Source of the DNA: Pseudomonas sp. 10S4
GTDB lineage: Bacteria; Pseudomonadota; Gammaproteobacteria; Pseudomonadales; Pseudomonadaceae
Direction: 5' to 3'
Length of the DNA stretch: 64,000 nt
Assembly (NCBI RefSeq): GCF_034344865.1
Contig: NZ_CP133774.1
Span: 1,798,001-1,862,000, forward strand
This document shows positions 30,789-61,431 of the stretch, one piece after another; position 1 is the first letter of the stretch; each line of letters begins with the position of its first letter. The notes beneath the pieces are model-generated. The model saw nothing but the letters and a program-made list of their open reading frames with translations, did no database searches and had not been told where the DNA came from. The position numbers were made by a program, and so were the translations under genes.

Positions 30789-33559
30789 TCAGTGAGCCTC
30801 ATCCCAGTTATTGCCTACGCCAACCTCTACCAGAAGCGGTACGTCCAGCTTCACGGCGTTGCTCATGTGGGCGCGAATCTCTTCGCGCACCTGATCAACT
30901 AGGTCCTCACGCACTTCAAGCACCAATTCATCGTGTACCTGCAGGATCACTTTGGCGTCCAGGCCTGACGACGTCAGCCAGTTATCCACTGCCACCATGG
31001 CTTTCTTGATGATGTCTGCCGCGGTGCCTTGCATCGGGGCATTGATCGCCGTGCGCTCGGCGCCTTTGCGCAGGGCCGGGTTTTTCGCGTTGATATCCGG
31101 CAGGTACAGGCGACGGCCGAAAATGGTTTCGACGAAACCCTGCTCGGCAGCCTGGGTGCGGGTGCGTTCCATGTACTCGAGAACGCCAGGATAGCGGGCG
31201 AAATAGCGATCGATGTACGCCTGGGACTGTTTGCGATCAACGCCGATCTGCTTGGCCAGGCCAAACGCGCTCATGCCGTAGATCAGACCGAAGTTGATCG
31301 CCTTGGCGCTGCGCCGCTGATCGGTGGTGACGGCCGTCAGTTCGACCCCGAAGACTTCGGCGGCGGTGGCTTTGTGCACGTCCAGGTCGTTGCGGAAAGC
31401 GTGCAGCAAGCCTTCGTCCTTGGCCAGGTGAGCCATGATCCGCAGTTCGATCTGCGAGTAGTCCGCAGCCAGCAGTTTGTAGCCTTTTGGCGCGACGAAC
31501 GCCTGACGAATCCGCCGACCTTCGGCAGTGCGGATCGGGATGTTCTGCAGGTTTGGATCACTGGACGACAAGCGCCCGGTCGCGGCGACGGCTTGATGAT
31601 AAGACGTATGAATCCGCCCGGTGCGTGGGTTGATCTGCTCCGGCAAGCGGTCGGTGTAGGTGCTTTTCAGCTTGCTCATCGAGCGGTACTGCATCAGCAC
31701 CTTGGGCAGTTGGAAATCCTGATCGGCCAGCTCCGCCAATACGGCTTCGGCGGTGGACGCCTGGCCTTTTGCGGTTTTGCTGAGGATCGGCAGGCCGAGT
31801 TTTTCGTACAGGATGGCGCCCAATTGCTTCGGCGAACCCAGGTTGAATTCTTCGCCGGCGAGGACAAACGCCTCACGCTCCAGCTCGACCATTTTCTTGC
31901 CCAGCTCAACGCTCTGAATACCCAGCAGTTCGGCATCGACCAGCGCGCCCTGACGCTCAATCCGCGCCAGTACCGGTACCAGTGGCATTTCGATTTCGCT
32001 CAAGACCTTGCTCAGGCTTGGGATCGCGTTGAGCTTTGCCTGCAAGGTTTGATGCAGGCGCAGCGTCACGTCGGCATCTTCGGCGGCGTAAGGCCCAGCC
32101 AGTTCCAGGGCGATCTGGTCAAACGTCAGTTGCTTGGCACCTTTGCCGGCAATGTCGGTAAAACCGGTGGTGGTGTGATTCAGGTACTTGAGCGCCAGGC
32201 TGTCCATGTCGTGGCGGGTCGCGGTGGAGTCCAGCACGTAGGACTCGAGCATGGTGTCGAAGGCAATGCCTTGCACGGTGATGCCGCAGCTCTGATCACC
32301 ACCGATGGCGCAGTTGGCCAGGATGTTCATGTCGAACTTGGCGTGCTGGCCGACCTTGAGCTTGCTCGGGTCTTCGAGGATCGGTTTCAGTGCCCGCAGT
32401 ACGGTGTCGCGATCCAGTTGCTCCGGCACGCCCATGTAGGAATGGGTCAACGGGATGTAGGCTGCTTCGTTGGCTTGTACTGCAAACGACAGGCCCACCA
32501 GTTGCGCCTGCTGTGCATCGACACCCGTGGTTTCGGTGTCGAAGGCCATCAATTTGGCGTCGTTCAACTTCTTCAGCCAGAGGTCGAAATCTGCCTGCGT
32601 GAGGATCGTCGTGTAGTTGAGTTCGGCTTCGACGACGGCTTCTTCAGCCACTGGCGCGACAACTGCCTGGCCGGAACGCTTGGCGTCGCGCTGGTTATCG
32701 TCGAACCAGCTCCTGAACTCGAGCAGGGTGTAGAGCTCGGCGAGTTTGTCGTGATCGGGCTGGCCCATTTGCAGATCGTCGAGGCCGATGTCCAGTGGCA
32801 CGTCGATCTTGATGGTCGCCAGCTTATAGGAGAGGAATGCCATCTCCTTGTGCTCTTCAAGCTTGGCCGGCAGGGTCTTGGCGCCGCGAATCGGCAGGGT
32901 CGGGACAATGTCGAGCTGCGCGTAGAGCTCGGTCAGGCCACCATTTACACCCACCAGCAGGCCGGAGGCAGTCTTCGGGCCAATGCCCGGAACGCCCGGA
33001 ATGTTGTCGGACGAATCGCCCATCAACGCCAGATAATCGATGATCTGCTCGGGAGCGACGCCGAATTTCTCCTTCACGCCCTCCACGTCCATGCTGCTAC
33101 CGGTCATGGTATTGACCAAGGTAATGTGCCCGTCGACCAGTTGCGCCATGTCTTTGTCGCCGGTGGAGATCACCACCGGGCGGTCGGCGGCCGCGCTGCT
33201 GCGGGCCAGGGTGCCGATCACGTCATCGGCCTCGACGCCTTCGACACACAGCAACGGGAAGCCCAGGGCGATCACGCTTTGGTGCAGCGGCTCGATCTGG
33301 ACGCGCATGTCGTCGGGCATGCTTGGGCGATTTGCCTTGTATTCGGCGTACATGTCATCGCGAAACGTCCCACCCTTGGCGTCGAACACCACGGCGAACG
33401 GGCTGTCCGGGTACTGCTTGCGCAGACTCTTGAGCATGTTCAACACACCCTTGACCGCGCCGGTAGGCAGGCCTTTGGAAGTGGTCAGCGGTGGCAAGGC
33501 GTGAAACGCGCGGTACAGGTAAGAAGAACCGTCCACCAGGACGAGGGGGCTTGGCTCAT
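30789..33559 (-). CDS. polA: DNA polymerase I PolA (start codon out of frame by one base in this sequence)
   Basis: With one base restored the protein has 923 residues, the usual length. The 5'-3' exonuclease domain begins LVLVDGSSYLYRAF; the 3'-5' exonuclease has FDTETTGVDAQQ near residue 350; the polymerase domain has DYSQIELRIMAH, RRSAKAINFGLIYG and QVHDELVLEV. The native ATG is at 33559 (MSQAP), but the G run at 33545-33549 is one base short, so as written the ATG reads MSQAPSSW and stops being PolA. The downstream frame is open all the way to 30789. Sequence error is the likely cause, since the frame is otherwise perfectly preserved. Confidence 0.93.
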
Positions 33560-33633
33560 GAGCAGGATCAACCTTTTCGGCGGGTCCGGCGCTAGAATAG
33601 CGGGACCGTTGACGACAAAGGGACAAGGTTATC

Positions 33634-33924
33634 ATGCGCACACTAAATCGCCTGTTGCTGGCTGGGTTGTTTGCAACCGTTCCGTTAGCCGTCATGGCGG
33701 CGGACGATGTGTCAAAGGCTGAGCCGGAAGTCACGATCCACACGGAAGGGGACAAGGTCATTCAGGAATACCGCCAAAACGGCTTCTTGTATGCGATTAA
33801 GGTCACGCCGAAGGGTGCACCGCCATATTTTCTGGTGCGCGCAGACGGGACCGATGCAAACTTCATCCGCTCGGACCAGCCGGATATGTTGATTCCGTCG
33901 TGGAAAATCTTTGAGTGGAAGTAG
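33634..33924 (+). CDS. DUF2782 family periplasmic protein
   Basis: A 96-residue protein with a signal peptide (residues 1-22, ending VMAAD). The mature domain carries the family pattern VTIHTEGDKVIQEYRQNG, LYAIKVTPKGAPPYFLV and a C-terminal SWKIFEW. Function unknown. It is divergent from polA with 74 bases between starts and probably cotranscribed with thrB, as in other Pseudomonas. Confidence 0.9.
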   Translation: MRTLNRLLLAGLFATVPLAVMAADDVSKAEPEVTIHTEGDKVIQEYRQNGFLYAIKVTPKGAPPYFLVRADGTDANFIRSDQPDMLIPSWKIFEWK

Positions 33925-33983
33925 TTTCTTAACTTTAATCGGCGCCGCTCGATCGCGGCGCCCGAACTGAGCAGTTTTTAACC

Positions 33984-34933
33984 ATGTCTGTGTTCACCCC
34001 CTGGCTCGGCCCGAGCTGGAAACCTTTCTCGCCCCATACGGGCTCGGCCGCCTGCTCGATTTCCAGGGGATTGCCGCCGGTAGCGAAAACACCAATTTCT
34101 TCATCAGCCTGGAGAAGGGCGAGTTTGTCCTGACCCTGGTCGAGCGCGGCCCGGTTCAGGAAATGCCGTTCTTCATCGAACTGCTTGATGTGTTGCACGA
34201 CGCTGACTTGCCGGTGCCTTACGCGCTTCGCACTACAGACGGCGTGGCCTTGCGCGAATTGGCGGGCAAGCCGGCGCTGTTGCAGCCGCGTCTGGCCGGC
34301 AAGCACATCAAGGACGCCAATGCCCAGCATTGTTCACAGGTGGGCGAGTTGCTCGGCCATCTGCACCTGGCGACCCAGGCCAACATGATCAAGCGCAAGA
34401 CGGATCGTGGTCTGGACTGGATGCTGGAGGAGGGCACGCAGTTGCTCTCGCACCTGAACGCCGAGCAAAGCGATCTGCTGCAACGGGCGCTGGACGAAAT
34501 CACTCAGCGAAAAGAGAAAATTCTGGCGCTGCCACGGGCGAATATCCACGCCGACCTGTTCCGCGACAACGCGATGTTCGAAGGCACGCACCTGACCGGG
34601 TTGATCGACTTCTACAACGCCTGTTCCGGGCCGATGTTGTACGACGTGGCGATTGCCTTGAATGACTGGTGTTCGGACGAACAAGGCTTGATCGACGGGC
34701 CGCGAGCCCGGGCCTTGTTGGGCGCCTATGCGGCGCTGCGCCCGTTTACTGCGGCCGAGGCCGAGTTGTGGCCGACCATGCTGCGAGTGGCGTGCGTGCG
34801 GTTCTGGCTGTCGCGGTTGATTGCCGCCGAGTCTTTCGCCGGGCAGGACGTGTTGATTCACGATCCGATGGAGTTTCAGCTGCGCTTGGCACAGCGGCAG
34901 AAGGTCAATACGCAATTGCCGTTCGCCCTTTAA
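33984..34933 (+). CDS. thrB: Homoserine kinase ThrB, Pseudomonas/APH type (one-base frameshift near the start)
   Basis: ThrB phosphorylates homoserine on the way to threonine. This form belongs to the aminoglycoside-phosphotransferase fold, with NIHADLFRDNAMF as the catalytic loop and GLIDFYNACSGP as the metal-binding segment. The gene starts MSVFTP at 33984, then the C run at 33997-34001 is one base short; restoring it gives LARPELETFLAPYGL and a 316-residue protein, the family length. Without the correction only an internal start at 34163 remains, which would lack the nucleotide-binding lobe. Confidence 0.9.
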
Positions 34934-34935
34934 AT

Positions 34936-35046
34936 TGTGGCGAGGGGGCTTGCCCCGTTGGAGTGCGAAGCGCTCCCATGCGATTTATCGACCGGCAATT
35001 TGGGGGCTGCTTCGCAGCCCAACGGGGGCAAGCCCCCTCGCCACAG
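34936..35046. repeat. Inverted REP pair of the GTGGCGAGGG type
   Basis: TGTGGCGAGGGGGCTTGCCC and GGGCAAGCCCCCTCGCCACA are inverted around GAGTGCGAAGCGCTCCC and GGGCTGCTTCGCAGCCC inner palindromes. It begins directly after the thrB stop and ends near the znuA stop. Confidence 0.85.
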
Positions 35047-35058
35047 GTTCTGTGTCGG

Positions 35059-35989
35059 TTACAACGACTCCAGGCACCCTGCCAAATCATTCCCCAACTT
35101 CTCCAGTACCTGCTCATACCCTTGAGCAGTCGCCGGGGTGTAGCCGCCCAGCGCATCCAGTTCTGCCAGTTTCACCGGCAGGCCAGCCACCAGGGTTTCC
35201 GCCAGGCGTGGCCGCAGCGGCGGTTCGCTGAACACGCAAGGTCTTGCCGACTTCCTGCAATCGGGTGCGCATCGCTGCGACATGCTGGGCGCCAGGCTGG
35301 ACTTCAGCTGCGACGCTGAACACGCCGGTGTGCTTGAGGCCGTAAGCGTCTTCGAAGTAGTCGAACGCTTCGTGGAACACGAAGTAAGGCTTGCCGGCGA
35401 TGCCTGCCAGGCGAGCCTTCAGGCGCAGGTCCAAAGCATCCAGACGCTCATCGAACGCCTTTAGGTTGCTCTGATAGCGCGGCGCGTTGTCGGGATCGGC
35501 GGCACTCAGGTCGGCGGCCATTTTCGTGGCGATCACCCGAGCATTCACCGGCGACAACCACAAATGCGCGTCCAGAGTCCCCGGACGATGATCGTGGTCA
35601 TGTTCGTCGGCATCTTCGGCGTGAGATTGGCTATCTTCGGCGAAGTGTCGCAGTTTCAGGTCAGGCAAATCCTGCACGGCGACAGTGGGCAGTGTGCGAC
35701 CTTTCAGCACGCGCGGCAGGAAACCTTCCATGTCCGGACCGATCCAGTACACCAGATCCACCGACTGCACTTTCCGTACGTCGGAGGGGCGCAAGGCGTA
35801 GTTATGCGGCGAAGCTCCCGGCGGCAGCAGCACCTCCGGAATCGCCACTCCGTCCTGCACCGCCGCCGCAATCAACTGCAGTGGCTTGATGCTGGTGAGC
35901 ACTGTGACTTGCGCTTGAGCCGAGCCAATCAGCAGGAAACTTGCGATAAATGCGACAGGGATAGAAAAAAGTCGGGACACGATGACCAC
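35059..35989 (-). CDS. znuA: Zinc ABC transporter substrate-binding protein ZnuA (one-base frameshift in the C-terminal part)
   Basis: A cluster A-I metal-binding protein that captures zinc in the periplasm. The signal peptide ends GSAQAQ. Zinc ligands are visible: His in ASPHNYALRP, the His-rich acidic loop EDADEHDHDHRPGTLDAHLW, and VFHEAFDYF. After GKT the frame breaks near 35238, where an extra A (T on the coding strand) is present. The remaining C-terminus (CVFSEPPLRPRLAETLVAGL to CLESL) continues in another frame. Corrected length about 309 residues. ATG 35989 or GTG 35980 could be the start. Divergent from zur with a candidate Zur box between. Confidence 0.9.
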
Positions 35990-36007
35990 TCGAAGAGGCG
36001 AGAACGG

Positions 36008-36020
36008 GTAACATAATAAC
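36008..36020. promoter_or_regulatory. Candidate Zur box in the znuA/zur divergent promoter
   Basis: GTAACATAATAAC resembles the gammaproteobacterial Zur operator (GTTATANTATAAC type): AT-rich with partial dyad symmetry. It lies 27 bases before the zur ATG and 19 bases before znuA. Assigned from location and resemblance only. Confidence 0.5.
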
Positions 36021-36046
36021 GTCTCTCACAAAACTCGTCGCCGCTC

Positions 36047-36529
36047 ATGCCTAAAACACCGATTGCCAGCCGTCCCCACGACCACTCTCATTGCGTTCAT
36101 AGCGCATTGTCTGAGGCCGATGCCTTGTGCGCACGTCAGGGTTTGCGCCTGACCGCCCTGCGCCGGCGGGTGCTGGAACTGGTCTGGCAAAGCCACAAGC
36201 CGCTGGGCGCCTACGACATCCTGGCGGTACTCAGCGAGCAGGATGGTCGACGCGCAGCGCCACCGACCGTGTACCGGGCGCTGGATTTCCTGCTGGATAA
36301 CGGCCTCGTGCACCGCATCTCGTCGTTGAACGCCTTCGTTGGCTGCAATCACCCGGAACACGCCCACCAGGGTCAGTTCCTGATTTGCCGCGAATGCCAC
36401 GCCGCGATTGAACTTGAACAAAAATCCATCAGCGACGCGATTGTCTTCAGCGCCAAGGATGTCGGATTTGTCGTGGAGGCCCAGACCGTTGAAGTGGTCG
36501 GGCTCTGCTCGGGTTGCCAGGGGGCTTGA
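36047..36529 (+). CDS. zur: Zinc uptake regulator Zur (Fur family)
   Basis: A 160-residue Fur-family repressor that shuts off zinc import when zinc is plentiful. The winged helix covers about 25-95 ([45 protein letters not shown]). Structural zinc cysteines are CREC at about 115 and CSGC near the C-terminus; regulatory histidines are in [10 protein letters not shown]. The stop overlaps the znuC ATG (TGATG), so zur, znuC and znuB form one transcript. Confidence 0.94.
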
Positions 36530-37314
36530 TGAGCAACGCGCTGATCCGTCTCGAACAGGTTGCAGTCACGTTTGCCGGGCAAAGCGTGCTGGAAAACATT
36601 GATCTGAGCGTCGAGCCAGGGCAGATCGTGACCCTGATCGGCCCCAACGGCGCTGGCAAAACCACTCTGGTGCGCGCCGTACTCGGCCTGTTGAAACCGG
36701 ACAGCGGTAGCGTCTGGCGCAAGCCGAAACTGCGCGTTGGCTACATGCCGCAAAAACTTCACGTCGATCCAACCCTGCCGCTGTCGGTGCTGCGCTTCTT
36801 GCGCTTGGTGCCGGGAGTGGACCGTGCTCGTGCGTTGTCGGCCCTCAAGGAAGTCGGCGCCGAGCATGTCATCGACAGCCCGGTACAAACGGTGTCTGGT
36901 GGCGAAATGCAGCGTGTGCTGCTGGCCCGGGCGCTGTTGCGTGAACCGGAACTGCTCGTGCTCGACGAGCCGGTGCAAGGCGTCGATGTGGCCGGTCAGG
37001 CCGAGTTGTACAGCCTGATCACGCGTTTGCGTGACCGTCACGGCTGCGGCGTGCTGATGGTTTCCCACGATTTGCACCTGGTGATGAGCACCACCGATCA
37101 GGTGGTTTGCCTGAATCGCCACGTCTGTTGCTCCGGGCACCCGGAACACGTCAGCGGCGATCCAGCCTTCGTCGAGCTGTTCGGCAAGAACGCACAAAGC
37201 CTGGCGATTTATCACCACCATCACGACCATGCTCATGACCTGCATGGCTCGGTGGTCAGCGCGACCGCGTCGGCCCAACCCCACGTCCATGGAGATAGCT
37301 GCAAGCATGGCTGA
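36529..37314 (+). CDS. znuC: Zinc ABC transporter ATP-binding protein ZnuC
   Basis: A 261-residue ATPase with Walker [10 protein letters not shown], signature VSGGEMQRV, Walker [13 protein letters not shown] and H-loop VSHDLH. The C-terminal tail is histidine-rich ([14 protein letters not shown] and [11 protein letters not shown]), usual in ZnuC, perhaps sensing or buffering zinc. The ATG overlaps the zur stop. It works with ZnuA and ZnuB. Confidence 0.95.
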
Positions 37315-38969: not shown

Positions 38970-41107
38970 CTAGGCCGGAATCGCCTTGGCCTTAGGCTCC
39001 CTGTCCCAAACCCGATGCTGCCCAATCGCGGCAAAAAACGCCTTGAACAGCTTGGCATCCGCGCCAACGATCAACCCCGCATCCGCCTCCAGTTTCAACA
39101 CATCCAGCAATTGCCTGGCCTCGCCATGCAACGCAATCGCCTTCAGGTGCTTGTAGGCCTCCAGCAAGTAATGCAACGCCACGCCATCACCGCTCAACGC
39201 CTTGATCGACGCGGCGCCACCCGGCACGAACACCGCATCGAACGCCACCGACGGCAGACCTTCCATCGACGCATCCACCGGCAGTGACTTGCCATTGGCA
39301 GTTGTCACCGGCGCCGAAGTCGGCCCAAGCAATTTGGCGTGAGCACCCTCGGCGGTCAGCGCTTTCTTTATCGCCTCAATCGCTGCACCATCGACGCCGT
39401 TGGCCGCAAGAATCGCCACTTTCCGGGTTTTGATGTTTTCTGGCAGTAAATTGGCCTGACTCAGCGCTGGGGAGTGATCCAGCGACGTTTTGCGCACATC
39501 CACAGTCCCGGCTTTCGGCGCCGGCAGACCCAGGTTCTGCGCCACACGCTTGGCCAGTTCCAGATCGATATTGGCGAGGATCTCGTTAACTTGCCGCTCA
39601 CGAATCCACAACCGTTCAACCTTACCCAACTCGAAGCTGTAAGCCGAGATGATGTGTTCCTGCTCGTGCTTGCTCATGCTCTTGAAGAACAGCCGCGCCT
39701 GGGAAAAGTGATCGCTGAACGACTCGCTGCGCTGACGAATCTTGTTGGCGTCGATGCGTTCCGGATATGTCTCGAAGCCACCGTCCTTCGCCGCCGCGGG
39801 GTTTCTTTCGGCCAACCGCCATCAATCGAGTTGGGCTCGTAGGACGCGCGACCCTTGTCGATGGTGGTTCGGTGCAAGGCATCGCGCTGGCCGTTGTGGA
39901 AGGGAGTGACCGGGCGGTTGATCGGGATTTCGTGAAAGTTTGGGCCGCCGAGTCGGCTGATTTGCGTGTCGGTGTAGGAAAACAACCGACCTTGCAGCAG
40001 TGGATCGTTGGAGAAGTCGATGCCTGGGACGATGTGCCCAGGGCAAAACGCAACCTGCTCGGTTTCGGCGAAGAAATTGTCCGGGTTGCGGTTCAACACC
40101 ATTTTGCCCAGTGGTGTGATCGGGACGATTTCTTCCGGGATCAGTTTGGTCGGGTCGAGGATGTCGAAGTCGAAGCTGTGCTCGTTCTCTTCTTCGATAA
40201 TTTGTACGCCAAGTTCCCATTCCGGGTAGTCCCCGGTCTCGATGGCCTCCCAGAGATCGCGACGGTGGAAGTCAGTGTCTTTACCGGCGAGTTTCTGCGC
40301 CTCATCCCACACCAGCGAGCAAGTGCCGGCGGTAGGGCGCCAGTGGAATTTGACGAAGCGCGATTTGCCTTCGGCATTGATCAGCCGAAAGGTGTGGATG
40401 CCGAAGCCCTGCATGCTGCGCAGGCTTTTCGGGATCGCCCGGTCGGACATCGTCCAGATGACCATGTGTGCCGACTCGGGTTGCAGGGACACGAAGTCCC
40501 AGAACGTGTCATGGGCCGAGCCGCCAGTCGGCATATCGTTGTGGGGCTCGGGTTTTACCGCGTGGACGAAGTCGGGAAACTTGATCGCGTCCTGAATGAA
40601 GAACACCGGCATGTTGTTGCCCACCAGGTCGAAGTTGCCTTCGTCGGTGAAGAACTTCACAGCGAAACCTCGTACGTCCCGCACAGTATCGCCTGACCCG
40701 CGCGGGCCTTGAACGGTAGAGAAACGGGTGAATACCGGGGTTTTCTTGCCCGGCTCCTGTAGGAAACCAGCCTTGGTCAGAGCGGAGTGGTTTTCGTAGG
40801 TCTGGAAGTAGCCATGGGCGCCGGTGCCTCGGGCATGAACGATGCGCTCCGGAATGCGTTCATGGTCAAAATGCGTGATCTTTTCACGCATGATGAAGTC
40901 TTCCAGCAGCGACGGCCCGCGGGCTCCGACCTTCAAGCTGTTCTGGTTGTCCGAAACCTTCACGCCTTGGTTGGTGCGCAATGCCTGTTCAGTGGCATCG
41001 GAGCGAAATTGTTCCAGGCTATCGAGCTTGGCGTTGGTGTTGCCGCGGTCCAGGGTGTCGGTCCCGGCCAATGCGCTTTTGGGAGCGCCAGGCTTCTTGG
41101 TACTCAT
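38970..41107 (-). CDS. katE: Large-subunit catalase KatE/HPII type (one-base frameshift)
   Basis: A clade 2 catalase with about 712 residues once corrected. The catalytic His region is [19 protein letters not shown], with the Asn in [23 protein letters not shown], and the heme tyrosine in [12 protein letters not shown]. After GGWPKETP the G run at 39798-39801 is one base short; the remaining 280 residues ([17 protein letters not shown] onward) continue in the next frame. They end in the DJ-1/GATase-like domain of HPII ([14 protein letters not shown]). It degrades hydrogen peroxide in the cytoplasm. Not part of the znu or met units. Confidence 0.92.
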
Positions 41108-41372
41108 CAGTCGTAAACTCCTCGTTGCGATTCCTGCCGTAGCCAGGATTCTTGTGCAATTCCCCAGGCACGGCACCGGGGGCGTTTTCGAGTTGCCTAA
41201 TTAGTGACTGATGAGGTTTTTAGCCGTTCCTTTTTTATGACCTTTGATCGCGTTATTTCCAAATGAAAGGATGAATGCGGAATAAATGCTAATAACCTCT
41301 ATACGGACAGGCTAAAATGCGCGCCCGGCTAACCGCTGATCCTTTTCCAACGCGCCCCACAAGGTTCGCTAC

Positions 41373-48278: not shown

Positions 48279-49165
48279 TCAAAGCACGTAGACGAAAACG
48301 AACAGCCCGATCCACACCACGTCGACGAAGTGCCAGTACCAACTCGCCGCTTCGAAGCCGAACTGGTGCTCGTTATCGAAGTGTCCGCGCATGATCCGCA
48401 TCAGCATCACGAACAGGATGATGGTGCCGATGGTCACGTGGGCGCCGTGGAACCCGGTGAGCATGAAGAACGTTGCGCCGTAGACGCCCGAACCGAGGGT
48501 CAGCCCCAGTTCGTGGTAGGCGTGTGTGTATTCTTCGGCTTGCAGCGCGAGGAACCCGCAGCCCAGCAGCACGGTGATCGCCAGCCAGATTTTAAGCGCG
48601 CCGCGATGGCCTTTTTCAAGGCGTGATGGGCGATGGTCACGGTGACGCTGGAGCTGACCAGCAAAATAGTGTTGATCAGCGGCAGGCCCCAGGGGCTGAT
48701 GACTTCTTTAGGTGGCGGGAACAGTTTCGGGTCCGGGGTGTGCAGCAGCGGCCAGGCGAATTGAAAGTTCGGCCAGAGCATGTGGGCGATGCCCTTTGGG
48801 CCTTCGCCTCCCAGCGCCGGGCCAGAGATGTGCCGCACGTAAAACAGCGCACCGAAGAAGGCGATGAAGAACATCACCTCGGAGAAGATGAACCAACTCA
48901 TGCCCCAGCGGAACGAGCGATCAAGCTGCGGGCTGTACAACCCCGCGCGGCTCTCCTTGATCACCGTGCCGAACCAGCCGAACAGCATGTAGGCCAGCAG
49001 CAGGCCGCCGACGAAAAAGATCAGCGGGCCGTGGGATTCCGGCCGTGCCGCTTTCAGGTCGTTGAACCAGGTGGCCAGGCCGTACACCGTGACCAGCATG
49101 CCGGCGGTGGCGATGATCGGCCATTTGCTCTGGGCGGGTACGTAATAGTGCTCATGAGTTGCCAT
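48279..49165 (-). CDS. Cytochrome c oxidase subunit III (one-base frameshift)
   Basis: A subunit with seven membrane helices, 295 residues when corrected. The N-terminal part (MATHEHYYVPAQSKWPI to VTIAHHALKK) reads in one frame; after the Lys pair a G is missing near 48610. Restoring it gives KKGHRGALKIWLAITVLLG and joins the C-terminal 97 residues (GFHGAHVTIGTIILFVM, FGFEAASWYWHFVDVVWI). It supports the core oxidase and proton uptake. Located between ctaG and the SURF1 gene. Confidence 0.93.
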
Positions 49166-49918: not shown

Positions 49919-51515
49919 TCATTTCACTTCCGGCGGGGTGGTGAAGGTGTGATACGGCGCCGGTGACGGCACGCTCCACTCCAGACCTTCAGCCCCTTCC
50001 CACGGTTTGGCCGGTGCTGGCGGGCCGCCGCGAATGGTCTTGATCACGATGAACAGGAAGAACAGCTGCGTGGTACCGAACATGAACGCGCCAATCGACG
50101 ACACCATGTTGAAGTCGGCGAATTGCAGGTTGTAGTCCGGAATCCGTCGCGGCATGCCCGCCAGCCCCACGAAGTGCATCGGGAAAAAGGTCATGTTCAT
50201 ACCGATGAACGACAGCCAGAAATGCAGCTTGCCGAGAGTTTCGTCGTACATGTGGCCGGTCCATTTCGGCAGCCAGTAGTAGGCCGAGGCGAAGATCCCG
50301 AAGATCGCCCCCGGCACCAGCACGTAGTGGAAGTGCGCGACCACGAAGTAGGTGTCCTGGTACTGGAAGTCCGCCGGGGCGATGGCCAGCATCAGGCCGG
50401 AGAAGACGCCGCCGATGGAGAACAGGATGATCGAGACGCCACGGCGAACAGCATCGGCGTTTCGAAGGTCAGCGAGCCTTGCCACATGGTGCTGGCCCAG
50501 TTGAACACTTTCACGCCGGTCGGCACCGCGATCAGCAGCGTGGCGTACATAAAGAACAACTCGCCCACCAGCGGAATACCAACCACGAACATGTGGTGCG
50601 CCCAGACGATAAACGACAGGAACGCGATGCTCGCCGTGGCGTAGACCATCGAGGTGTAGCCGAACAGTGGCTTGCGCGAGAAGGTCGGGATGATCGAGCT
50701 GACGGCACCGAAGAACGGCAGCGCGATGATGTACACCTCGGGGTGGCCGAAGAACCAGAACAGGTGCTGGAACAGCACCGGGTCCCCGCCACCGGCGGCA
50801 CTGAAGAAACTGGTGCCGAAGTGGATGTCCATCAGCATCATCGTCACGCACCCGGCCAGCACCGGCATTACTGCGATCAGCAGGAACGCGGTGATCAGCC
50901 AGGTCCAGACGAACAGCGGCATTTTCATCAGCGTCATGCCAGGGGCGCGCAGGTTGAGGATGGTGGCGATCACGTTGATCGCGCCCATGATCGAGCTGAT
51001 GCCCATCAGGTGGATGGCGAAGATGAAGTAGGTCACGCTTTCTGGCGCGTAGGTCGTGGAGAGCGGGGCGTAGAAGGTCCAGCCGAAGTTTGGCCCGCCG
51101 CCTGGCCGGTGAACAAGGTCGAGATCAACAGGATGAACGCCGCTGGCAGTAGCCAGAAGCTGAAGTTGTTCATCCGTGGCAGGGCCATGTCCGGCGCGCC
51201 GATCATCAACGGGATCATCCAGTTGGCGAGGCCGACGAAGGCTGGCATCACTGCACCGAAGACCATCACCAGGCCATGCATGGTGGTCATCTGGTTGAAG
51301 AACGCCGGTTCGACGATTTGCAGCCCGGGCTGGAACAGCTCGGCACGAATCACCATGGCGAACGAGCCGCCAATCAGGAACATGGTGAACGCAAACCACA
51401 GGTACAGCGTGCCGATGTCCTTGTGGTTGGTGGTCAGCACCCAGCGCATCAGGCCCTTGGCGGGGCCGTGGGCATGGTCGGCGGCATGACCGTGGTCATC
51501 GATTACAGCGCTCAT
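49919..51515 (-). CDS. ctaD: Cytochrome c oxidase subunit I CtaD (two one-base frameshifts)
   Basis: The catalytic heme-copper subunit with 12 membrane helices, 532 residues when both breaks are corrected. Landmarks are [15 protein letters not shown] at the N-terminus, TMHGLVMVF with the low-spin heme His, [14 protein letters not shown] with CuB His and the cross-linked Tyr, WAHHMF and [10 protein letters not shown]. Breaks occur near 51104-51108 (after LFTG, before PGGGPNFGW) and near 50437 (after FAVA, before [10 protein letters not shown]). Each needs one base added at a short G or C run. The three frames join without loss of family sequence. Confidence 0.94.
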
Positions 51516-51597: not shown

Positions 51598-52724
51598 TCA
51601 TTTGCTTTCCGCCTGTTTCAACTCCAGCACTTCTTTAGGCGTGACCATGTCGCCTTTGTTGTTGCCCCAGGCGTTACGTTCGTAGGTCACGACCGCTGCG
51701 ATATCGACTTCCGAGAGCTGCTTGCCGAACGCCGCCATGGCGGTGCCAGGTTTGCCGAAGTAAACGCGGTGCAGGTGGTCTGCTTTCGGTCCGGTAGCAA
51801 TCGGCGAACCTTTGAGCGCCGGGAACATTGGCGGCAAGCCTTGCCCTTCGGCCTGGTGACAGGCCACGCAGGTGGTGTGATAGATCTTGTCACCGCGCTC
51901 TTTGAGTTCGTCGAGGGTCCACTCCTTGGTTGTCAGCTCTTTGAGCTGCAAGGCTTCTGCCTTGCGATCGGCCAGCCACTTGTCGTAATCGGCCTTTTCC
52001 TTGACCTCGACCACGATCGGCATAAAGCCGTGATCCTTGCCGCACAGCTCGGCACACTGGCCACGGTAAATGCCGGGCTTGTCGATCCGGGTCCAGGCTT
52101 CGTTGACGAACCCCGGAATCGCATCGCGCTTGACCGCAAAGGCCGGCACCCACCAGGAGTGGATAACGTCGGCGGAAGTCACCAGGAAGCGCACCTTGGC
52201 CCCGATCGGCAGCACCAACGGTTTGTCGACCTCGAGCAAGTAGTGCTCGCCCTTGGCTTCCTTGTTGTGGATTTGATCCTGGGGGTGGCCAGGTTGCTGA
52301 AGAACTCGACGTCCTGGCCCAAGTATTTGTAGTGCCACTTCCACTGATAGCCGGTGATCTGGATATCGATATCCGGCTCACTGGAGTCATACATCTTGAT
52401 CAGGGTGGCTGTCGCGGGAACCGCCATGGCCACCAGAATGATGAAGGGCACGACAGTCCAGAGAATTTCTACGGTGGTACTTTCATGAAATTTTGCGGCC
52501 ACCTGCCCGGTCGAGCGGCGGTGGACCATCATCGACCAGAACATGGCGCCGAAGACGATGATGCCGATCACTACACAGATCCAGAAAATGGTCATGTGCA
52601 GGTCAAATACTGCGTGACTGATTTCAGTCGCTCCAGGCGCCATATTCACAGTCCAGGCGGCTTGCGCCTGGCTGAAAATCGACCACAACAGGAGGCCCAT
52701 CCAGACATGTGGATGTCGCATCAT
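51598..52724 (-). CDS. Cytochrome c oxidase subunit II with fused cytochrome c, caa3 type (one-base frameshift)
   Basis: A 375-residue protein when corrected. The signal peptide ends AQAAW, two membrane helices follow (DLHMTIFWICVVIGIIVFGA and VPFIILVAMAVPATATLI), then the CuA domain with CAELCGKDHGFMPI. A cytochrome c domain with CVACH closes the protein (methionine ligand probably in PGTAMAAFG). After NLATP the G run at 52281-52285 is one base short; restoring it gives QDQIHNKEAKGEHYLLEV. It is the first gene of the oxidase operon; 82 bases separate it from ctaD. Confidence 0.94.
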
Positions 52725-53859: not shown

Positions 53860-53866
53860 TGTTGTT

Positions 53867-55393
53867 TTACCCTGTCGAACCCACTCCGGATGTGGTCCGC
53901 AACCGTCCTTCCAACCTGCGCTTCAACCCCCGCGCCTCAATCAGCAACTTCGAACCCTTGGCCGCATTCGCCCGGCCCCACTCCTCAAGCAGTTCCAGAC
54001 ACGAATGGTCGATGTAGCTCAGGTTATTGAGCGGCACATGCACCGTCGTGCCGGCCGGAATGGTGCCCAGCACCTGGGTCAACGCCGGTACCTTGAGAAA
54101 GGTCGCCGCGCCGATCAGCCGCAACTCCATTTCGCCGTCCTTGGGCAGGTCGATCAGGCTGATCTTCAGCCGTGAAGCCTTCCAGGCCAGTTTCGCCAGG
54201 GTCAGGCCGAAGCCGATCAGCACGCCAGTCAGCAGGTCGGTGAAGATGATCGCCAGGGCAGTCGCCGCATAGGTGAACATCGGCATCCGGCCATAACGCC
54301 CCAAGCCGCGAAAGGCCTTGAGGTCCACCAGTTTGAAACCGGTGGAGACCAAAACACCGGCCAGGCTCGCCACCGGAATGCTTTGCAGCACGCTGGACAG
54401 CAACAGCACGAACGCCAGCAACCACAGACCATGGAAGATCGCCGACATTCGTGTGGTCGCGCCGGCCTGGACGTTAGCCGAGCTGCGCACGATTACCCCG
54501 GTCATTGGCAATGCACCGAGCAAACCGCAGAGCATGTTGCCCACGCCTTGCGCCGACAACTCCCGGTCGAAGTCCGAACGCTGGCCGCTGTGCATGCGGT
54601 CGACGGCGGCGGCCGAGAGCAGGGTTTCGGCGCTGGCGATGAAGGCCACGGCAAACGCGGCGATCAGCAGCGTCGGGTCAGCCAGGTTGAGCAAGTCCGC
54701 GGGTTTGAGCCAGTCGATGGCTTCAGCCAGGTTGGCCGGGACCTCCACGCGTTTGACCTGCAAGGCGAGCATCAGGCTGGCAACCGTCGCCAGACCGACA
54801 CCAAGCAAGGCACCGGGAATGAATCGTAGCGAGTGCGGGCGGAATTTTTCCCACAGCCACATCACCGCAATCGTCGACAGTCCAAGCAAACCGGCCTGCC
54901 AGCCCAAGGATGGCAAGGCCTGAGCCACGGCGGCAGGGAACGCTGCGAGGTTATCCAGCCCTGACGGTTTGGGCACGGCGTCGAGCATCACATGCACTTG
55001 TGACAGCACGATCAACACGCCAATCCCGGCGAGCATGCCGTAGACCACCGCTGGCGCCGTCACCCGAAACCAGCAGCCCAGTTTCAAACGACCGGCCACC
55101 AGTTGCAGAAAACCGGCCAGCAGCAAAATCGGCCCGAGCATGGCGATACCGTGTTGGCGCACCAGCTCGAATACCAACACGGCCAGGCCCGCCGCCGGGC
55201 CGCTGACTTGCAACGGTGAGCCGGCAATCCAGCCCACCACCAAGCCACCGATGATCCCGGTGATCAGGCCTTTGGCCGGCGGCAAACCCGAGGCGATGGC
55301 GATGCCCATGCACAAGGGCAGGGCCACCAGAAACACCACCACCGAAGCCAGCAGCTCCCGTGGCAAAACAGCTTTTAGTTGCGCAGCACGCAT
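53867..55393 (-). CDS. SulP family inorganic anion transporter
   Basis: A 508-residue transporter with about 12-14 membrane segments and a C-terminal STAS domain from about residue 410 (GAATFLKVPALTQVLGTIPA, LSYIDHSCLELLEEWG). The N-terminal segment VVFLVALPLCMGIAIASGLPPAKGLITGIIGG is the SulP signature region. Next to carbonic anhydrase, it may import bicarbonate, as in SulP-CA pairs elsewhere; sulfate is the alternative. 90 bases separate it from the carbonic anhydrase start side, so one transcript is likely. Confidence 0.9.
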   Translation of the reverse strand: MRAAQLKAVLPRELLASVVVFLVALPLCMGIAIASGLPPAKGLITGIIGGLVVGWIAGSPLQVSGPAAGLAVLVFELVRQHGIAMLGPILLLAGFLQLVAGRLKLGCWFRVTAPAVVYGMLAGIGVLIVLSQVHVMLDAVPKPSGLDNLAAFPAAVAQALPSLGWQAGLLGLSTIAVMWLWEKFRPHSLRFIPGALLGVGLATVASLMLALQVKRVEVPANLAEAIDWLKPADLLNLADPTLLIAAFAVAFIASAETLLSAAAVDRMHSGQRSDFDRELSAQGVGNMLCGLLGALPMTGVIVRSSANVQAGATTRMSAIFHGLWLLAFVLLLSSVLQSIPVASLAGVLVSTGFKLVDLKAFRGLGRYGRMPMFTYAATALAIIFTDLLTGVLIGFGLTLAKLAWKASRLKISLIDLPKDGEMELRLIGAATFLKVPALTQVLGTIPAGTTVHVPLNNLSYIDHSCLELLEEWGRANAAKGSKLLIEARGLKRRLEGRLRTTSGVGSTG

Positions 55394-55483
55394 AGGGATT
55401 CTCCCGAAGTTTTTTCAGGCATGGCGAAGCCAGGCTGCTCAATCGGCAGCCTCGGCTAAACCACACAACGATTTAGGAGGTTT

Positions 55484-56214
55484 TTAGAAGCGCGCTTTGG
55501 GCGTCGCCACCGGAATCGGATGGCTGCCATCGAGCGGCAGGAAACGACCCTGATCCGCGTCGTACGCTTTGATTTCGCTGGTTTCGATGCTGTAGACCCA
55601 GCCATGGATAAACAGCTGACCGTTGGCCATGCGCGAGGCCACCGATGGGTGTGTGCGCAGATGCTGCAACTGGGCGATCACATTCTCTTCGGTGAGGATG
55701 TGCATGCTTTCGTTTTCGTCAGCGCAATGGCAGTTTTCCTGGACCATGGTTTTCGCCACTTCGGCATGCCGCAGCCAGGCTTTGACCGTGGGCATTTTTT
55801 CCAGGCTCTGCGGGTTGAGTACCGCGCGCATGGCGCCGCAATCGGAATGGCCGCAAATGATGATGTGTTGCACGCCGAGGGCCAGCACCGCGTATTCGAT
55901 CGCGGTGGAAACGCCGCCGTTCATTTGCCCATAAGGTGGCACAACGTTGCCGACGTTACGGGTCACGAACAGATCGCCAGGGGCGCTTTGGGTGATCAGT
56001 TCAGGAACGATGCGCGAATCGGCGCAGGCGATGAACATCGCTCTCGGGCTCTGGGCTGTGGCGAGTTTTTGAAGAGCTCTTCCTGCTGTGGAAAGACCTC
56101 GTGATGAAAATGCAAAAAGCCGTCAACGATATGCTTCAGCGCTGCATCGGCGGACTCCGCCTCGGGGTGGGCTGAAACCGACGCAGCCAACGGCTGTTTA
56201 TCCTTGTCACTCAT
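55484..56214 (-). CDS. Beta-class carbonic anhydrase (one-base frameshift)
   Basis: Interconverts CO2 and bicarbonate; 243 residues when corrected. The N-terminus (MSDKDKQPLAASVSAHPEAE to PQQEELFK) reads in one frame; the T run at 56066-56070 (A on the coding strand) is one base short. Restoring it gives FKKLATAQSPRAMFIACADSR. Zinc ligands are the Cys and Asp of CADSR and the His and Cys of CGHSDCGAM. It is coupled to SulP downstream, suggesting bicarbonate supply or pH control. Confidence 0.93.
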
Positions 56215-56456
56215 GATTCATCCTCTTTGACGGAGATTGGGAAGTGTCCCGTTTTGTCCGATATGAAGCCAGTGGCTGTTTAAAAAAATCCAGGTCGCAG
56301 ATCTCGACCCGTCAGTCACTCGATGAACAAGGTAGCCGGCGAAACTTAACTCAAACTGAATAAACCGCTCTAGAACGCACGTTCCAGGTCGCAAAAAACG
56401 TGACCGGGAATGACGGCGGCGGGTGTTTCCACTACTCAACCATAGGCCAATTGTCC

Positions 56457-57515
56457 TCAAATCAATGACATTTGGCGACCCGGTGGACAGAAGGCGTCGC
56501 AGTCCAGATTAAACCCTTCACGACGATTGAGCCCCAAGCGTTTGATGGTTTTGGCAAAGCGTTGCGCCAACAGGTCGGCGAATGGCCCTTCACCGCGCAT
56601 CCGCGCACCAAACCGGCTGTCGTAGAGCTCGCCGCCACGACTCTGCCGAATCAGGCTCAACACATGAGCCGCGCGCTGCGGGTAGTGGGCGGCCAGCCAT
56701 TCTTCGAACAACGGCGCCACTTCCAGGGGCAAGCGCAACATCATGTAGGCCGCGCTCTGGGCACCGGCCGCGTGGGCCTCGGTGAGCAGGCTTTCGAGTT
56801 CGCTGTCATTGATCATTGGAATCATCGGCGAGCACAAAACCCCCACCGGAATCCCGGCTTCGCGCATCACCCGAATGGCTCGTAATCGGGCCTTGGGCGC
56901 AGCGGCCCGGGGTTCGAGGATGCGTTTGAGTTCGTCGTCGAGTGTGGTGAGGCTGATCATCACGGCCACCAGGTTTTGCCGGGCGAGTTCAACCAGCAGA
57001 TCCAGATCACGAAGAATCAGCGAACCTTTAGTGATGATGGTCACCGGATGACGGTAACGCAGCAGCACTTCCAGGGTTTGGCGGGTGATTTTGTGTTCGC
57101 GTTCGATGGGCTGATACGGATCGGTGTTGGAACCCAGGTTGATCGGCGCGCATTGATAGCCGCGCTTGGAGAGTTGCTCCTCCAGCACGTCTGCAGCGTT
57201 GGTCTTGGCGATCAGTTTGGTTTCGAAATCCAGCCCCGGCGACATGTCCCAATAGGCGTGACTGGGCCGCGCGTAGCAATAGATGCAACCGTGCTCGCAG
57301 CCGCGATAAGGATTGATCGAGCGGTCGAAGGGCAAGTCCGGCGAGGTGTTGCGGGTGATGATGGTTTTCGCCGTCTCGATGCGCACTTCGGTGCCTTGGG
57401 TGACCGGCGCTTCCTGGTACCAGCCATCGTCCTCGGCCACCGAACGGTTCGGTGCGAAGCGGTTGTGCGGGTTGGTCGCGGTGCCGCGACCGCGTGGCGG
57501 AAGAGGAGTGGACAT
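56457..57515 (-). CDS. PA0069-family radical SAM protein
   Basis: A 352-residue radical SAM protein of the spore-photoproduct-lyase-related PA0069 family. The iron-sulfur motif CEHGCIYCY is at residues 73-81 (CxxxCxxC). Conserved flanks are SINPYRGCEHG, YARPSHAYWDM and LGSNTDPYQPIE, with a C-terminal CPPGRQMSLI. The reaction is unknown; DNA repair and nucleic-acid modification are only suggestions by homology. It is an isolated gene with about 240 non-coding bases on its right-end side toward carbonic anhydrase. Confidence 0.9.
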   Translation of the reverse strand: MSTPLPPRGRGTATNPHNRFAPNRSVAEDDGWYQEAPVTQGTEVRIETAKTIITRNTSPDLPFDRSINPYRGCEHGCIYCYARPSHAYWDMSPGLDFETKLIAKTNAADVLEEQLSKRGYQCAPINLGSNTDPYQPIEREHKITRQTLEVLLRYRHPVTIITKGSLILRDLDLLVELARQNLVAVMISLTTLDDELKRILEPRAAAPKARLRAIRVMREAGIPVGVLCSPMIPMINDSELESLLTEAHAAGAQSAAYMMLRLPLEVAPLFEEWLAAHYPQRAAHVLSLIRQSRGGELYDSRFGARMRGEGPFADLLAQRFAKTIKRLGLNRREGFNLDCDAFCPPGRQMSLI

Positions 57516-57585
57516 GAAAACGCCTCGATACTGGTTTTATATACAGTAACGAGGCGTCGTTCATCTGGCTAGTGCCGCTGGGCGA

Positions 57586-58890
57586 TCAGTTCTTCTGGGT
57601 GACCTGCCCCAGATCGTCGCCCGAGGTGGTTTTCATATCGTCCTTGCGCAGATCGGCCACGGTGCTTGCCTTGACGGGCTCGCCCTTGTTACCCCAACTG
57701 CTGCGAATGAAACTGACCACATCCGCCACTTCCTGATCCGACAACCGCCAGGCAAACGCTGGCATGGTGAAGGTCGACGGTGCCGTGTGAGTCGCCGGCA
57801 AGGTGCCGCCCTTGAGCACAACGTTAATCAGCGACGTCGGGTCTTGCGACTGCAACACCGGATTGCCCGCCAGCGCCGGGAACACTCGCGTGTAACCATG
57901 CCCGTCGGTACGGTGACAGGCCGCACAGTTGTCGATGTACACCGAGGCGCCAGGCTTGCTGTCATCACCCTTCCACAGCGCTTGGGCGACTTGTTTGTCG
58001 TACTTATGTGGCTGGTCGTTGGGGTCATTGGCCGGCAGGGACTTGAGGTAACGGGCAATTGCGGTCAGGTCGGCGTCGGTCATGTATTGCATGCTGTGGG
58101 TCACCACATCGCTCATGCCACCGAATACCGCACTGCGGTCGCTGCGCCCGGTCTTGAGGAATTGCACCAGTTGCGCCTCGCTCCAGCTGCCGAGGCCGTC
58201 CTTGTGGTCGCCGCGCAGGCTTTTCGCGATCCAGCCTTCCAGCGGCGCGCTGCCTGACAGAAAGGTGCTGCCATCGCCGGCATTCAGGGATTTTTCCTGC
58301 ATGGTCAGGGCTCTTGGCGTATGGCATGCGCCGCAATGTCCCAGGCCTTCCACCAGATAAGCCCCACGGCTGACTACCGCATCAGCGCCCGGTGCGGCTT
58401 TGTAATCCGCCACGGCCGGGGCAAACATCCAGCGCCAGCCCATCAGCGGCCAACGCATGCTCAAAGGCCAGGGAATGTCGCTGGCCTTGTTCTCCTGGGC
58501 GACCGGCGCCACGCCGTGTATGAAGTAGGCGTACAAGGCCTGCATGTCGGGTTCGGTGACGCTGGCGTAGGACGGATACGGCATCGCCGGGTACAAGGTG
58601 CTGCCGTTTTTGGCGACACCGTGGCGTACGGCTTTGTCGAAATCTTCGAAGCTGTAGTCGCCGAGGCCGGTTTTATCCGGAGTGATGTTGGTCGAGTAGA
58701 TCGTCCCGATTGGCGTTTCCATCGGCAGACCGCCGGCGAACGGCTTGCCGTCCTTCGCGGTGTGGCAGGCGATACAGTCACCGGCCCGGGCAAGGTATTC
58801 GCCTTGTTTGATCAGGTTTTGATCAACTTCTGCGGCGTTGATCGAGGCACTGCCGAGCAGGGCGAAGGTCGCGATAACGAGTGCTTTCAT
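57586..58890 (-). CDS. Triheme cytochrome c subunit of membrane gluconate-type dehydrogenase
   Basis: A 434-residue protein with a signal peptide (ending NAAEV, about residue 20) and three heme sites: CIACH at 39-43, CGACH at about 185 and CAACH at about 322. It carries electrons from the flavoprotein subunit to ubiquinone and anchors the complex at the membrane. It is 12 bases after the GMC gene in a three-gene operon. Gluconate 2-dehydrogenase or 2-ketogluconate dehydrogenase are both possible; the family also serves alcohol and sugar oxidation. Confidence 0.9.
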   Translation of the reverse strand: MKALVIATFALLGSASINAAEVDQNLIKQGEYLARAGDCIACHTAKDGKPFAGGLPMETPIGTIYSTNITPDKTGLGDYSFEDFDKAVRHGVAKNGSTLYPAMPYPSYASVTEPDMQALYAYFIHGVAPVAQENKASDIPWPLSMRWPLMGWRWMFAPAVADYKAAPGADAVVSRGAYLVEGLGHCGACHTPRALTMQEKSLNAGDGSTFLSGSAPLEGWIAKSLRGDHKDGLGSWSEAQLVQFLKTGRSDRSAVFGGMSDVVTHSMQYMTDADLTAIARYLKSLPANDPNDQPHKYDKQVAQALWKGDDSKPGASVYIDNCAACHRTDGHGYTRVFPALAGNPVLQSQDPTSLINVVLKGGTLPATHTAPSTFTMPAFAWRLSDQEVADVVSFIRSSWGNKGEPVKASTVADLRKDDMKTTSGDDLGQVTQKN

Positions 58891-58902
58891 GGTTATCGCT
58901 CC

Positions 58903-60687
58903 TTAAGCCTGAACCAGCGGGCCGGGGTTTTTCAGGTACTGCTCGCGGATCGCCCGCGCCGACCAGTAGGTCAACGCAGCCACCAGGCCTGTAGGGTTGT
59001 AACCCAAGCCTTGTGGGAAAGCCGACGCCCCAGGGACGAACACGTTGTGCACGTCCCAGCTCTGCAAGTAACGGTTCAGGGCGCTGGTTTTCGGGTTCGT
59101 GCCCATGATCGCGCCACCGTTGAGGTGGGTGGTCTGGTAGGCCGCGGTGTTGAAGTGATCACCGACCTGCTTGCCGATCACGGCGATAGCTTTGGGGCCC
59201 ATCGCTTCGGCGATCTTGCCCATTTTTTCGACCATGAAGCGGTTCATCTTGATGTCGTTTTCCTGCCAGTCGAAGGTCATCCGCAGCAGCGGCAAGCCGT
59301 AGGCATCGCGGTATACCGGGTCGAGATCCAGGTAGTTGCCGCGGTAGGACTGATGCGCGCCGTGTGAGTCCATCGACACCTGGTGGGTGTAGTAATCGGC
59401 GGTGGCGCGTTTCCACGCACTGCCCCAGGCCGGCGTGCCCGGCGGGTTCGAGGTCCCGGAGATTGGGCGGCTGCCGGCCTGGTTGACCCACATCGGCGAG
59501 CCGCCGACGAAGCCATGCGGCCCGTGGTCGAAGTTGTCGGCGTTGAAGTCATCGATCGCCACGCCGTTGCCGCCAGCCCCGATGAAGTTGTTGGTGTGGG
59601 TGTCCTTGTCGAAGAACGCCTTGATCGTGGCCATGTTCTGGTAGGCGAAGTTCTTGCCGACCACGCCTTCACCGCTGATCGGGTCGTAAGGCTTGCCGAT
59701 GCCGGAGAGCAACATCAACCGCACGTTGTGGAACTGGAACGCGCCGAGGATCACCAGATCGGCCGGCTGCTCGATCTCCCGGCCCTGGCCATCGATGTAG
59801 GTCACGCCGGTGGCTTTGGTCTTGGTGCTGTCGAGGTTGACCCGCAACACGTGGGAATTGGGCCGCAGTTCGAAATTCGGCAGCGGCTTGAGCGCCGGCA
59901 GAATGTTCACGTTGGGCGATGCCTTGGAGTACATGTAGCAAACGTAACCGCTGCAAAAACCGCAGAAGTTACACGGGCCCATTTGGGCGCCGTAGGGGTT
60001 GGTGTACGGGCCTGAGGTATTGGCCGACGGCAGGTTGTAGGGTTTGTAACCCACGGCTGTGGCCGCTTTCTGGAACAGCTGTGCGGAGACCGTATTTTTC
60101 TGGGATTCCAGCGGGAACGGGTTCGAGCGATCCGGTGCGTAAGGGTTGCCGCCCTTGCCTTCGCCGACCCGTTGACCGTTCACCGTCCAGGCTTGACCCG
60201 ACGTACCGAACACCTTTTCGGCGTAATCGAAGAACGGCTCCAGCTCTTCATAGCTGACGCCGAAGTCCTGGATGGTCATGTCCTTGGGAATGAAGTGTTT
60301 GCCGTAGCGTTCTTCGTAGTGACTGCGCATCCGCAACTCGATCGGGTCGACCCGAAAGTGCACGCCCGACCAATGCAGCCCCGCGCCGCCCACACCGTTA
60401 CCGGGCAGGAAAGCGCCGAGTTGGCGGTTCGGCAGTGCGATGTCATTCACGCTATGGCGAATGGTCACGGTCTCTTTGGAGATGTCCTGGAAGAGTTTCT
60501 TGCGAACGCTGTAGGTAAGTTCGTCGATCACCTGGGGATAGTTGCCGTCGGGGTAGGTGTCCTGCATCGGTCCGCGCTCCAGCGCCAACACGTTCAGGCC
60601 TGCTTCTGTCAGTTCTTTGGCCATGATCGCGCCGGTCCAGCCAAAACCGACGATGACTGCGTCGACCTTCTTCATAACTGTTGCCAT
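58903..60687 (-). CDS. GMC oxidoreductase, flavoprotein subunit of gluconate-type dehydrogenase
   Basis: A 594-residue flavoprotein. The FAD-binding Rossmann motif is VIVGFGWTGAIMAKELTEAG at about residues 12-31, with the GMC signatures GNGVGGAGLHWSGV and GASAFPQGLGYNPTGL. The His/Asn catalytic pair lies in TTHLNGG and NPTG. A Cys-rich patch CNFCGFCSGYVC near residue 240 fits the [3Fe-4S] site known in the related FAD-glucose dehydrogenase. It oxidises an aldonate or sugar in the periplasm, exported by the Tat signal of subunit 3. The stop and the cytochrome start are 12 bases apart. Confidence 0.92.
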   Translation of the reverse strand: MATVMKKVDAVIVGFGWTGAIMAKELTEAGLNVLALERGPMQDTYPDGNYPQVIDELTYSVRKKLFQDISKETVTIRHSVNDIALPNRQLGAFLPGNGVGGAGLHWSGVHFRVDPIELRMRSHYEERYGKHFIPKDMTIQDFGVSYEELEPFFDYAEKVFGTSGQAWTVNGQRVGEGKGGNPYAPDRSNPFPLESQKNTVSAQLFQKAATAVGYKPYNLPSANTSGPYTNPYGAQMGPCNFCGFCSGYVCYMYSKASPNVNILPALKPLPNFELRPNSHVLRVNLDSTKTKATGVTYIDGQGREIEQPADLVILGAFQFHNVRLMLLSGIGKPYDPISGEGVVGKNFAYQNMATIKAFFDKDTHTNNFIGAGGNGVAIDDFNADNFDHGPHGFVGGSPMWVNQAGSRPISGTSNPPGTPAWGSAWKRATADYYTHQVSMDSHGAHQSYRGNYLDLDPVYRDAYGLPLLRMTFDWQENDIKMNRFMVEKMGKIAEAMGPKAIAVIGKQVGDHFNTAAYQTTHLNGGAIMGTNPKTSALNRYLQSWDVHNVFVPGASAFPQGLGYNPTGLVAALTYWSARAIREQYLKNPGPLVQA

Positions 60688-60689
60688 GC

Positions 60690-61431
60690 TTATGCCCTCT
60701 CGCCGCGAATCGAAACTGCCGGGAAGGGGTATTGCTCGTTGCGTTCCACCCAGTCCATGAAATCGGCGCGGGCGCCGGGGAAGCCGATCATGGTCCAGCC
60801 GACCATGCCTTTGTTGCCGCCGTGGATCGGGTCGCAGAAGAACCCTTCCTTGGTGTTTTGCAGCAGCAGGTTGAAGAAAATCGTCGACGGAACGCTGTCG
60901 AAGTCAGGTTTTCCGGCTTCGAGTTGCTTCAGTAAATCGTCTCGGGTAGCGCTATCTTGGTCAGCAAATACTTTTCCGTTGACGGTTTTCGACCAGGAAT
61001 CCGTGGCGGCAATGCCCAAGCGATAGATCTCTTTAGGGACGAGTTTGCTCTGCCGAGCCCATTTCCGGCGGGGCGTCGGCGTTGAACGGCCCTTGCATGA
61101 ACCACAGCGCGCCGGCGGCGTACGGCGTGTTCATTTGCCGGTCGATGTATTCCGGCACGCCGGCTTCGAGTGCGCCTGGCCCTTGGGCATCGTTCGGGAT
61201 CAGTTGAGCGACGGCTGCCTTGATGAACGTCCATTCTTCGGCGGTGAAGTAGCTGGGTTCATAGACGCTGGTGCTGGCAGGGGTTTTGCCGGGACTGGAC
61301 GGCGCCGCTTCAGGCGCTGCGAGCAGGACGGAACTGCCCAGCGCGGTGCTGGCGACGGTGACCACCGGGATCAAGGTCAGGGATTTGCGCAAAAACTCAC
61401 GCCGCGGGTTGTCTCGATCTTGATCAGACAT
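60690..61431 (-). CDS. Gluconate 2-dehydrogenase subunit 3, Tat-exported (one-base frameshift)
   Basis: The small subunit, 246 residues when corrected. It carries the Tat signal RREFLRKSLTLIPVVTVAS at the N-terminus and exports the folded flavoprotein with it. After PPEMG the frame breaks near 61055, where an extra base is present; the continuation reads QSKLVPKEIYRLGIAATDSW and ends at 60690. The start is ATG 61431, with GAGG about 9 bases before it. It lies two bases before the GMC gene. Without correction the C-terminal half is lost. Confidence 0.9.

Follow-up and report, generated by a model that had tools for sequence, protein, structure and literature searches.

Frame breaks in nine genes of a Pseudomonas window as very probable consensus errors of its assembly

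In the long-read draft of Pseudomonas syringae 508, PGAP reported 1101 frameshifted genes, and 1234 pseudogenes made up 23.3% of the genes. In the passages of the Kastor paper that concern this draft (PMC12007338), deletions lie mostly at homopolymers, while insertions are less tied to runs and many of them follow A or T. Systematic Nanopore errors, as outlined in the Homopolish paper (PMC8011154), are mainly homopolymer indels, which shift reading frames and inflate pseudogene counts.

The window analyzed here is a stretch of 64,000 bases (bases 1798001-1862000) from a Pseudomonas genome in one contig (7,270,762 bases), which belongs to a one-genome-per-species set and has a completeness of 99.55%. 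Nine genes in its right half carry frame breaks. With little room for doubt, we regard these breaks, and those found over the other examined parts of the genome, as small insertion and deletion errors left uncorrected in the assembly consensus.

The relatives set against the window were the genomes G005, G046, G049 and G053, plus G034. Their genes were aligned to it one by one at the nucleotide level, and a break had to be unanimous among the relatives covering it. G053 was the nearest relative found, with 89.9% nucleotide identity over 48 kb of the window. No conspecific genome was found in a search that may omit the window's own or very near records; the best match was 88% identical in the query protein. 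The breaks in polA and thrB lie too close to the gene starts for the automatic gene-by-gene test; they were added by hand and rest on local alignments, in the case of polA also on tblastn. Greedy chaining of tblastn matches was tried and dropped, as one run missed ctaD, ctaC and katE and both missed thrB, with listed open reading frames (ORFs) overlapping real genes. Three automatic sites of the window (17039, 19109 and 41147) were removed before the statistics, being due to longer ORF starts in one relative or to disagreement among the relatives. Three sites to the right of the window (69616, 69699 and 69809 in window numbering; shifts of +1, +1 and -2, which cancel) were retained. The final set held 62 breaks in 325,675 comparable bases within 464 kb around and including the window, and restriction to places with at least two relatives left 35 sites. 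The sequence examined for the spread of the breaks covered 864 kb of the 7.27 Mb (approximately 12% of the genome).

Ten break sites in nine genes of the right half

A sequence-only reading of the window had listed ten breaks in nine genes after 33.5 kb and none before, and all ten sites were visible in local alignments to relatives. When these genes were aligned with Pseudomonas orthologs, as that reading had suggested, eight sites were found against five of five relatives, the polA site against four of five, and the gluconate dehydrogenase site against three of three. Eight of the ten were also recovered by the automatic gene-by-gene comparison, seven of them against four relatives and the last against two. 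The features are as follows.

1..33500, no strand: no confirmed break here; within the 464 kb examined, the longest clean gap includes this stretch
30789..33571, minus strand: polA (DNA polymerase I), break near codon 8 at about 33547, net one base short (4/5 relatives)
33984..34933, plus strand: thrB (homoserine kinase), break near the start at about 33998, net one base short (5/5 relatives)
35059..35989, minus strand: znuA (zinc ABC transporter substrate-binding protein), break at about 35241, net one base long (4/4 relatives, automatic)
38970..41171, minus strand: katE (catalase HPII), break at about 39796, net one base short (4/4 relatives, automatic)
48279..49165, minus strand: cytochrome c oxidase subunit III (CoIII), break at about 48611, net one base short (4/4 relatives, automatic)
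49919..51515, minus strand: ctaD (cytochrome c oxidase subunit I), breaks at about 50433 and 51106, each net two bases long (4/4 relatives, automatic)
51598..52724, minus strand: ctaC (cytochrome c oxidase subunit II), break at about 52284, net one base short (4/4 relatives, automatic)
55484..56214, minus strand: can (carbonic anhydrase), break at about 56070, net one base short (4/4 relatives, automatic)
60690..61453, minus strand: gluconate 2-dehydrogenase subunit 3, break at about 61055, net one base long (2/2 relatives, automatic; 3/3 in local alignment)

In the pieces scanned, NCBIfam and Pfam matches agreed with the gene names given earlier, though one of the two CoIII pieces had no match to an NCBIfam model. 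The proposed tally of eight missing bases and two insertions stood only in part. The alignments bore out the insertions in znuA and in gluconate dehydrogenase subunit 3 and the six sites that are one base short (polA, thrB, katE, CoIII, ctaC and can), but at each ctaD site the window has a net surplus of two bases over all four relatives, with the same effect on the frame as the proposed missing base. At polA, the fifth relative, G034, has the same shortened run.

Spread of the breaks and the clean left half

The 464-kb region that includes the window has 326 kb of coding sequence that could be compared, and its 62 breaks amount to 19.0 per 100 kb of that sequence. Before hand curation, the count was 63 unanimous breaks in 326 kb (19.3 per 100 kb), 32 of them against at least two relatives. 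By the same measure, the relatives gave far lower values: 6 breaks in 165 kb for G005 (3.6 per 100 kb; none against at least two relatives), 6 in 190 kb for G053 (3.2; one) and 10 in 238 kb for G046 (4.2; one). About half of the breaks of the window genome rest on one relative. Since the controls themselves gave 3 to 4 per 100 kb, some of the single-relative breaks should be differences or errors of the relative, and the net rate lies closer to 15 per 100 kb than to 19. Scaled up from about 12% of the genome, this would mean on the order of a thousand breaks genome-wide.

Gene alignments and an ab initio model of coding frame also separated the window genome from these relatives. Against G046 genes, it showed 38 core breaks in 251 kb, compared with 2 in 64 kb for G005, 1 in 64 kb for G049 and 3 in 120 kb for G053; against G053 genes, it showed 19 in 131 kb, compared with none in G005 (62 kb), G049 (63 kb) or G046 (119 kb). 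By gene alignment, 15 of 125 and 33 of 238 genes that could be compared were broken in the window genome (12 and 14%). The coding-frame model, trained on the 464 kb around and including the window, found 40 strong frame switches in that region, or 8.6 per 100 kb; twenty 20-kb samples scattered over the genome also gave 40 (10.0 per 100 kb; 0 to 4 per sample). With the same model, G005 had 2 in 80 kb (2.5 per 100 kb), G046 5 in 400 kb (1.25), G049 3 in 80 kb (3.75) and G053 4 in 160 kb (2.5), presumably overlapping genes and false calls, while G034 reached 11.25 per 100 kb. A cluster of small gaps was also seen within one gene to the right of the window (69361-69809, window numbering), where three gaps cancel in comparison with all four relatives.

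As had been claimed, no confirmed break precedes 33.5 kb: none of the G053 genes compared was broken in the left half. Where one or two other relatives differed in frame there, either their ORFs were longer or the gaps canceled out. At 1645-2709, for example, the ORF has 346 codons in G005 and 344 in G049 and is shorter in the window genome, G046 and G053; in G046 and G053 it has 221 codons, and two gaps there cancel.

The sequence-only reading had concluded that the right half comes from separate, lower-quality sequence, in other words that the assembly has a seam near 33.5 kb and is good elsewhere. The counts within the window favor such a seam, with no break in the left half where 5.7 were expected (4.4 with two-relative coverage) and 10 in the right half where 5.4 were expected (4.2), and the best cut point within the window gave a P of 0.0055 (0.002 with two-relative coverage). 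Over the wider region, however, the density does not drop outside the right half as a seam would predict: the left half has no breaks, but outside the window there are 19.4 per 100 kb (52 breaks in 267 kb), compared with 17.2 in the window as a whole (10 in 58 kb). The scattered samples are similar in their density of frame switches. Breaks reappear 3 kb to the left of the window, and the density is similar on both sides. The longest clean gap starts 2979 bases to the left of the window and ends at 33547, and the largest gap attained such a size in 8.5% of random placements (18.7% when only places with at least two relatives were used).

When the 26 overlapping windows of the region were allowed for, the contrast between the halves had a P of 0.057 (0.036 with two-relative coverage). 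With the three doubtful sites retained (65 sites; 2 left, 11 right), P was 0.067 in the window and 0.68 over the 26 windows. Break counts in 15-kb bins of comparable sequence look Poisson, being hardly overdispersed (mean 2.76, variance 3.09). Substitutions specific to the window genome, counted where three or more relatives have the same base, were no more frequent right of 33.5 kb: at codon position 1 they numbered 143 of 8464 on the left and 115 of 6821 on the right (P 1.0), at position 2 58 of 8939 and 56 of 7177 (P 0.34), and at position 3 there were 511 of 5357 on the left, the higher share, and 388 of 4587 on the right (P 0.06).

Because the contrast lies near the edge of chance and the bins are Poisson-like, no seam is needed, and we consider a separate right half very unlikely. 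The contrast is a true count but there is no boundary in the genome. Some regional variation in quality may exist, and the clean left half is best explained as a long gap between errors.

Essential genes, selection and sequence context

Eight essential gene families were searched over five genomes. In the window genome, three of the eight (rpoB, rpoC and leuS) are broken and five (dnaE, valS, ileS, alaS and gyrA) are intact, whereas all eight are intact in G005, G046 and G049 (24 of 24 genes). No second copy of rpoB, rpoC or leuS was found in these searches. The rpoB gene has 12 frame-changing gaps between gene nucleotides 1576 and 2091, all of them net insertions and found against each of three relatives; this count takes a new frame from 12 nt on, and the 40-nt rule used elsewhere gives 5 breaks. 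In total, the patch of approximately 515 nt holds 16 or 17 gaps and the rest of the gene none or one, with a whole-gene identity of 0.966 to 0.978 and aligned bases about 97% identical both inside and outside the patch. At about G000:C1:1054706-1055246, this patch looks like nearly raw read sequence. Separately, a second DNA polymerase III alpha-like gene (G000:C1:5854406-5857299) is split in two in the window genome and in G034; G005, G046 and G049 each have it as a single 1036-codon open frame.

Broken genes showed no sign of relaxed selection in the comparisons with G053 and G046. The median dN/dS was 0.056 in broken and 0.049 in intact genes against G053 (n = 33 and 174; P 0.57), and 0.058 in both against G046 (n = 36 and 198; P 0.87). 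The medians after the break (0.047 and 0.052) were no higher than those before it (0.064 and 0.080).

The sequence context was examined for 32 deletions and 25 insertions. A run of at least five bases lies within 20 nt of 17 of the 32 deletions, against a background of 2.5%, and of none of the 25 insertions. Six-base runs were one short in the window genome in 4 of 33, 4 of 17 and 2 of 13 cases against three relatives, compared with 0 of 19, 0 of 13 and 0 of 21 between relatives. Beyond runs, no context of the deletions was found among the short words tested. Both directions are common in the window genome, single-base breaks amounting to 15 and 15 of 38 in one count and 31 and 22 of 63 in another. 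Since insertions occur away from runs, the miscounting of runs alone fails to explain the set. The insertions are weakly enriched in TCG (13 of 25 vs. 22.8%; uncorrected P 0.0014), a signal that is lost once the 64 triplets are corrected for. That a modified base confused base calling at these insertions is improbable; if it did, a methylation motif of the strain would be readable from where the errors fall.

These results also bear on true gene decay, or a mutator strain that accumulates frameshifts in runs. Loss of mismatch repair would likewise favor changes in run length, and 17 of the 32 deletions do lie at runs. Against this stand the breaks in essential genes for which no second copy was found, the similar dN/dS of broken and intact genes, the share of comparable genes that are broken (15 of 125 and 33 of 238), and the 25 insertions away from runs. 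The breaks were not confined to dispensable genes under relaxed selection, as would be the case for pseudogenes, and decay or a mutator is extremely unlikely. Slippage at A or T runs is known in some insect symbionts, and some breaks do lie at A runs, but true frameshifts tolerated through transcriptional slippage or ribosomal frameshifting have a negligible probability here, as many breaks are away from slippery runs, the 12 frame-changing insertions of rpoB would be hard to rescue and the relatives lack the breaks.

The reading that remains, uncorrected consensus errors, agrees with breaks that are spread regardless of gene function, essential genes included, with enrichment at homopolymer runs for deletions (absent for insertions) and with unrelaxed selection. 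The earlier claim of sequence errors rather than decay is thus upheld by the essential genes broken in the same assembly, the unrelaxed selection and the bias of deletions to runs. Under this explanation, errors would occur roughly once every 5 to 7 kb in coding sequence; deletions would arise mainly from homopolymer runs counted one short and insertions would land outside runs, the right half having a modest excess and the left half, by chance, none. We infer sequencing and consensus calling as the cause, as well as the type of platform, the errors most likely stemming from long reads.

Comparison with other error-rich assemblies

The breaks of the right half are a data warning and very probably no true genomic feature. 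Gene absences, pseudogene counts and fused ORFs (for example, the 990-codon polA frame) taken from this assembly would mislead, and its 99.55% completeness score fails to reveal the split genes, rpoB, rpoC and leuS included.

G034, of the same genus, 95% complete and in one contig, was taken for another error-rich assembly. Like the window genome, it is dense in breaks (14 in 65 kb and 12 in 66 kb; 21.5 and 18.3 per 100 kb), with rpoB, rpoC, dnaE and alaS broken and the polA run equally shortened. Unlike those of the window genome, almost all of its breaks have a net loss of one base (12 of 14 and 12 of 12). Shortening of six-base runs was seen in 0 of 2 and 0 of 4 cases in G034, in the few runs available.

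An insertion-only pattern, as in the rpoB patch, is closer to raw PacBio errors. As far as the Homopolish paper describes Nanopore errors (PMC8011154), the window genome shares with them indels at homopolymers that shift frames, but differs in that 25 of its 62 breaks are insertions away from runs and in its insertion-only rpoB patch. With the P. syringae 508 draft, as presented in the Kastor paper (PMC12007338), it shares the genus, frameshifted genes across the assembly, and deletions tied to runs with insertions less so; it differs in having fewer broken genes (12 and 14% of those comparable) and an insertion context that is weakly TCG. Judged by analogy with what these two papers (PMC12007338, PMC8011154) describe, the mixture of deletions and insertions in the window genome appears to resemble that of their long-read assemblies.
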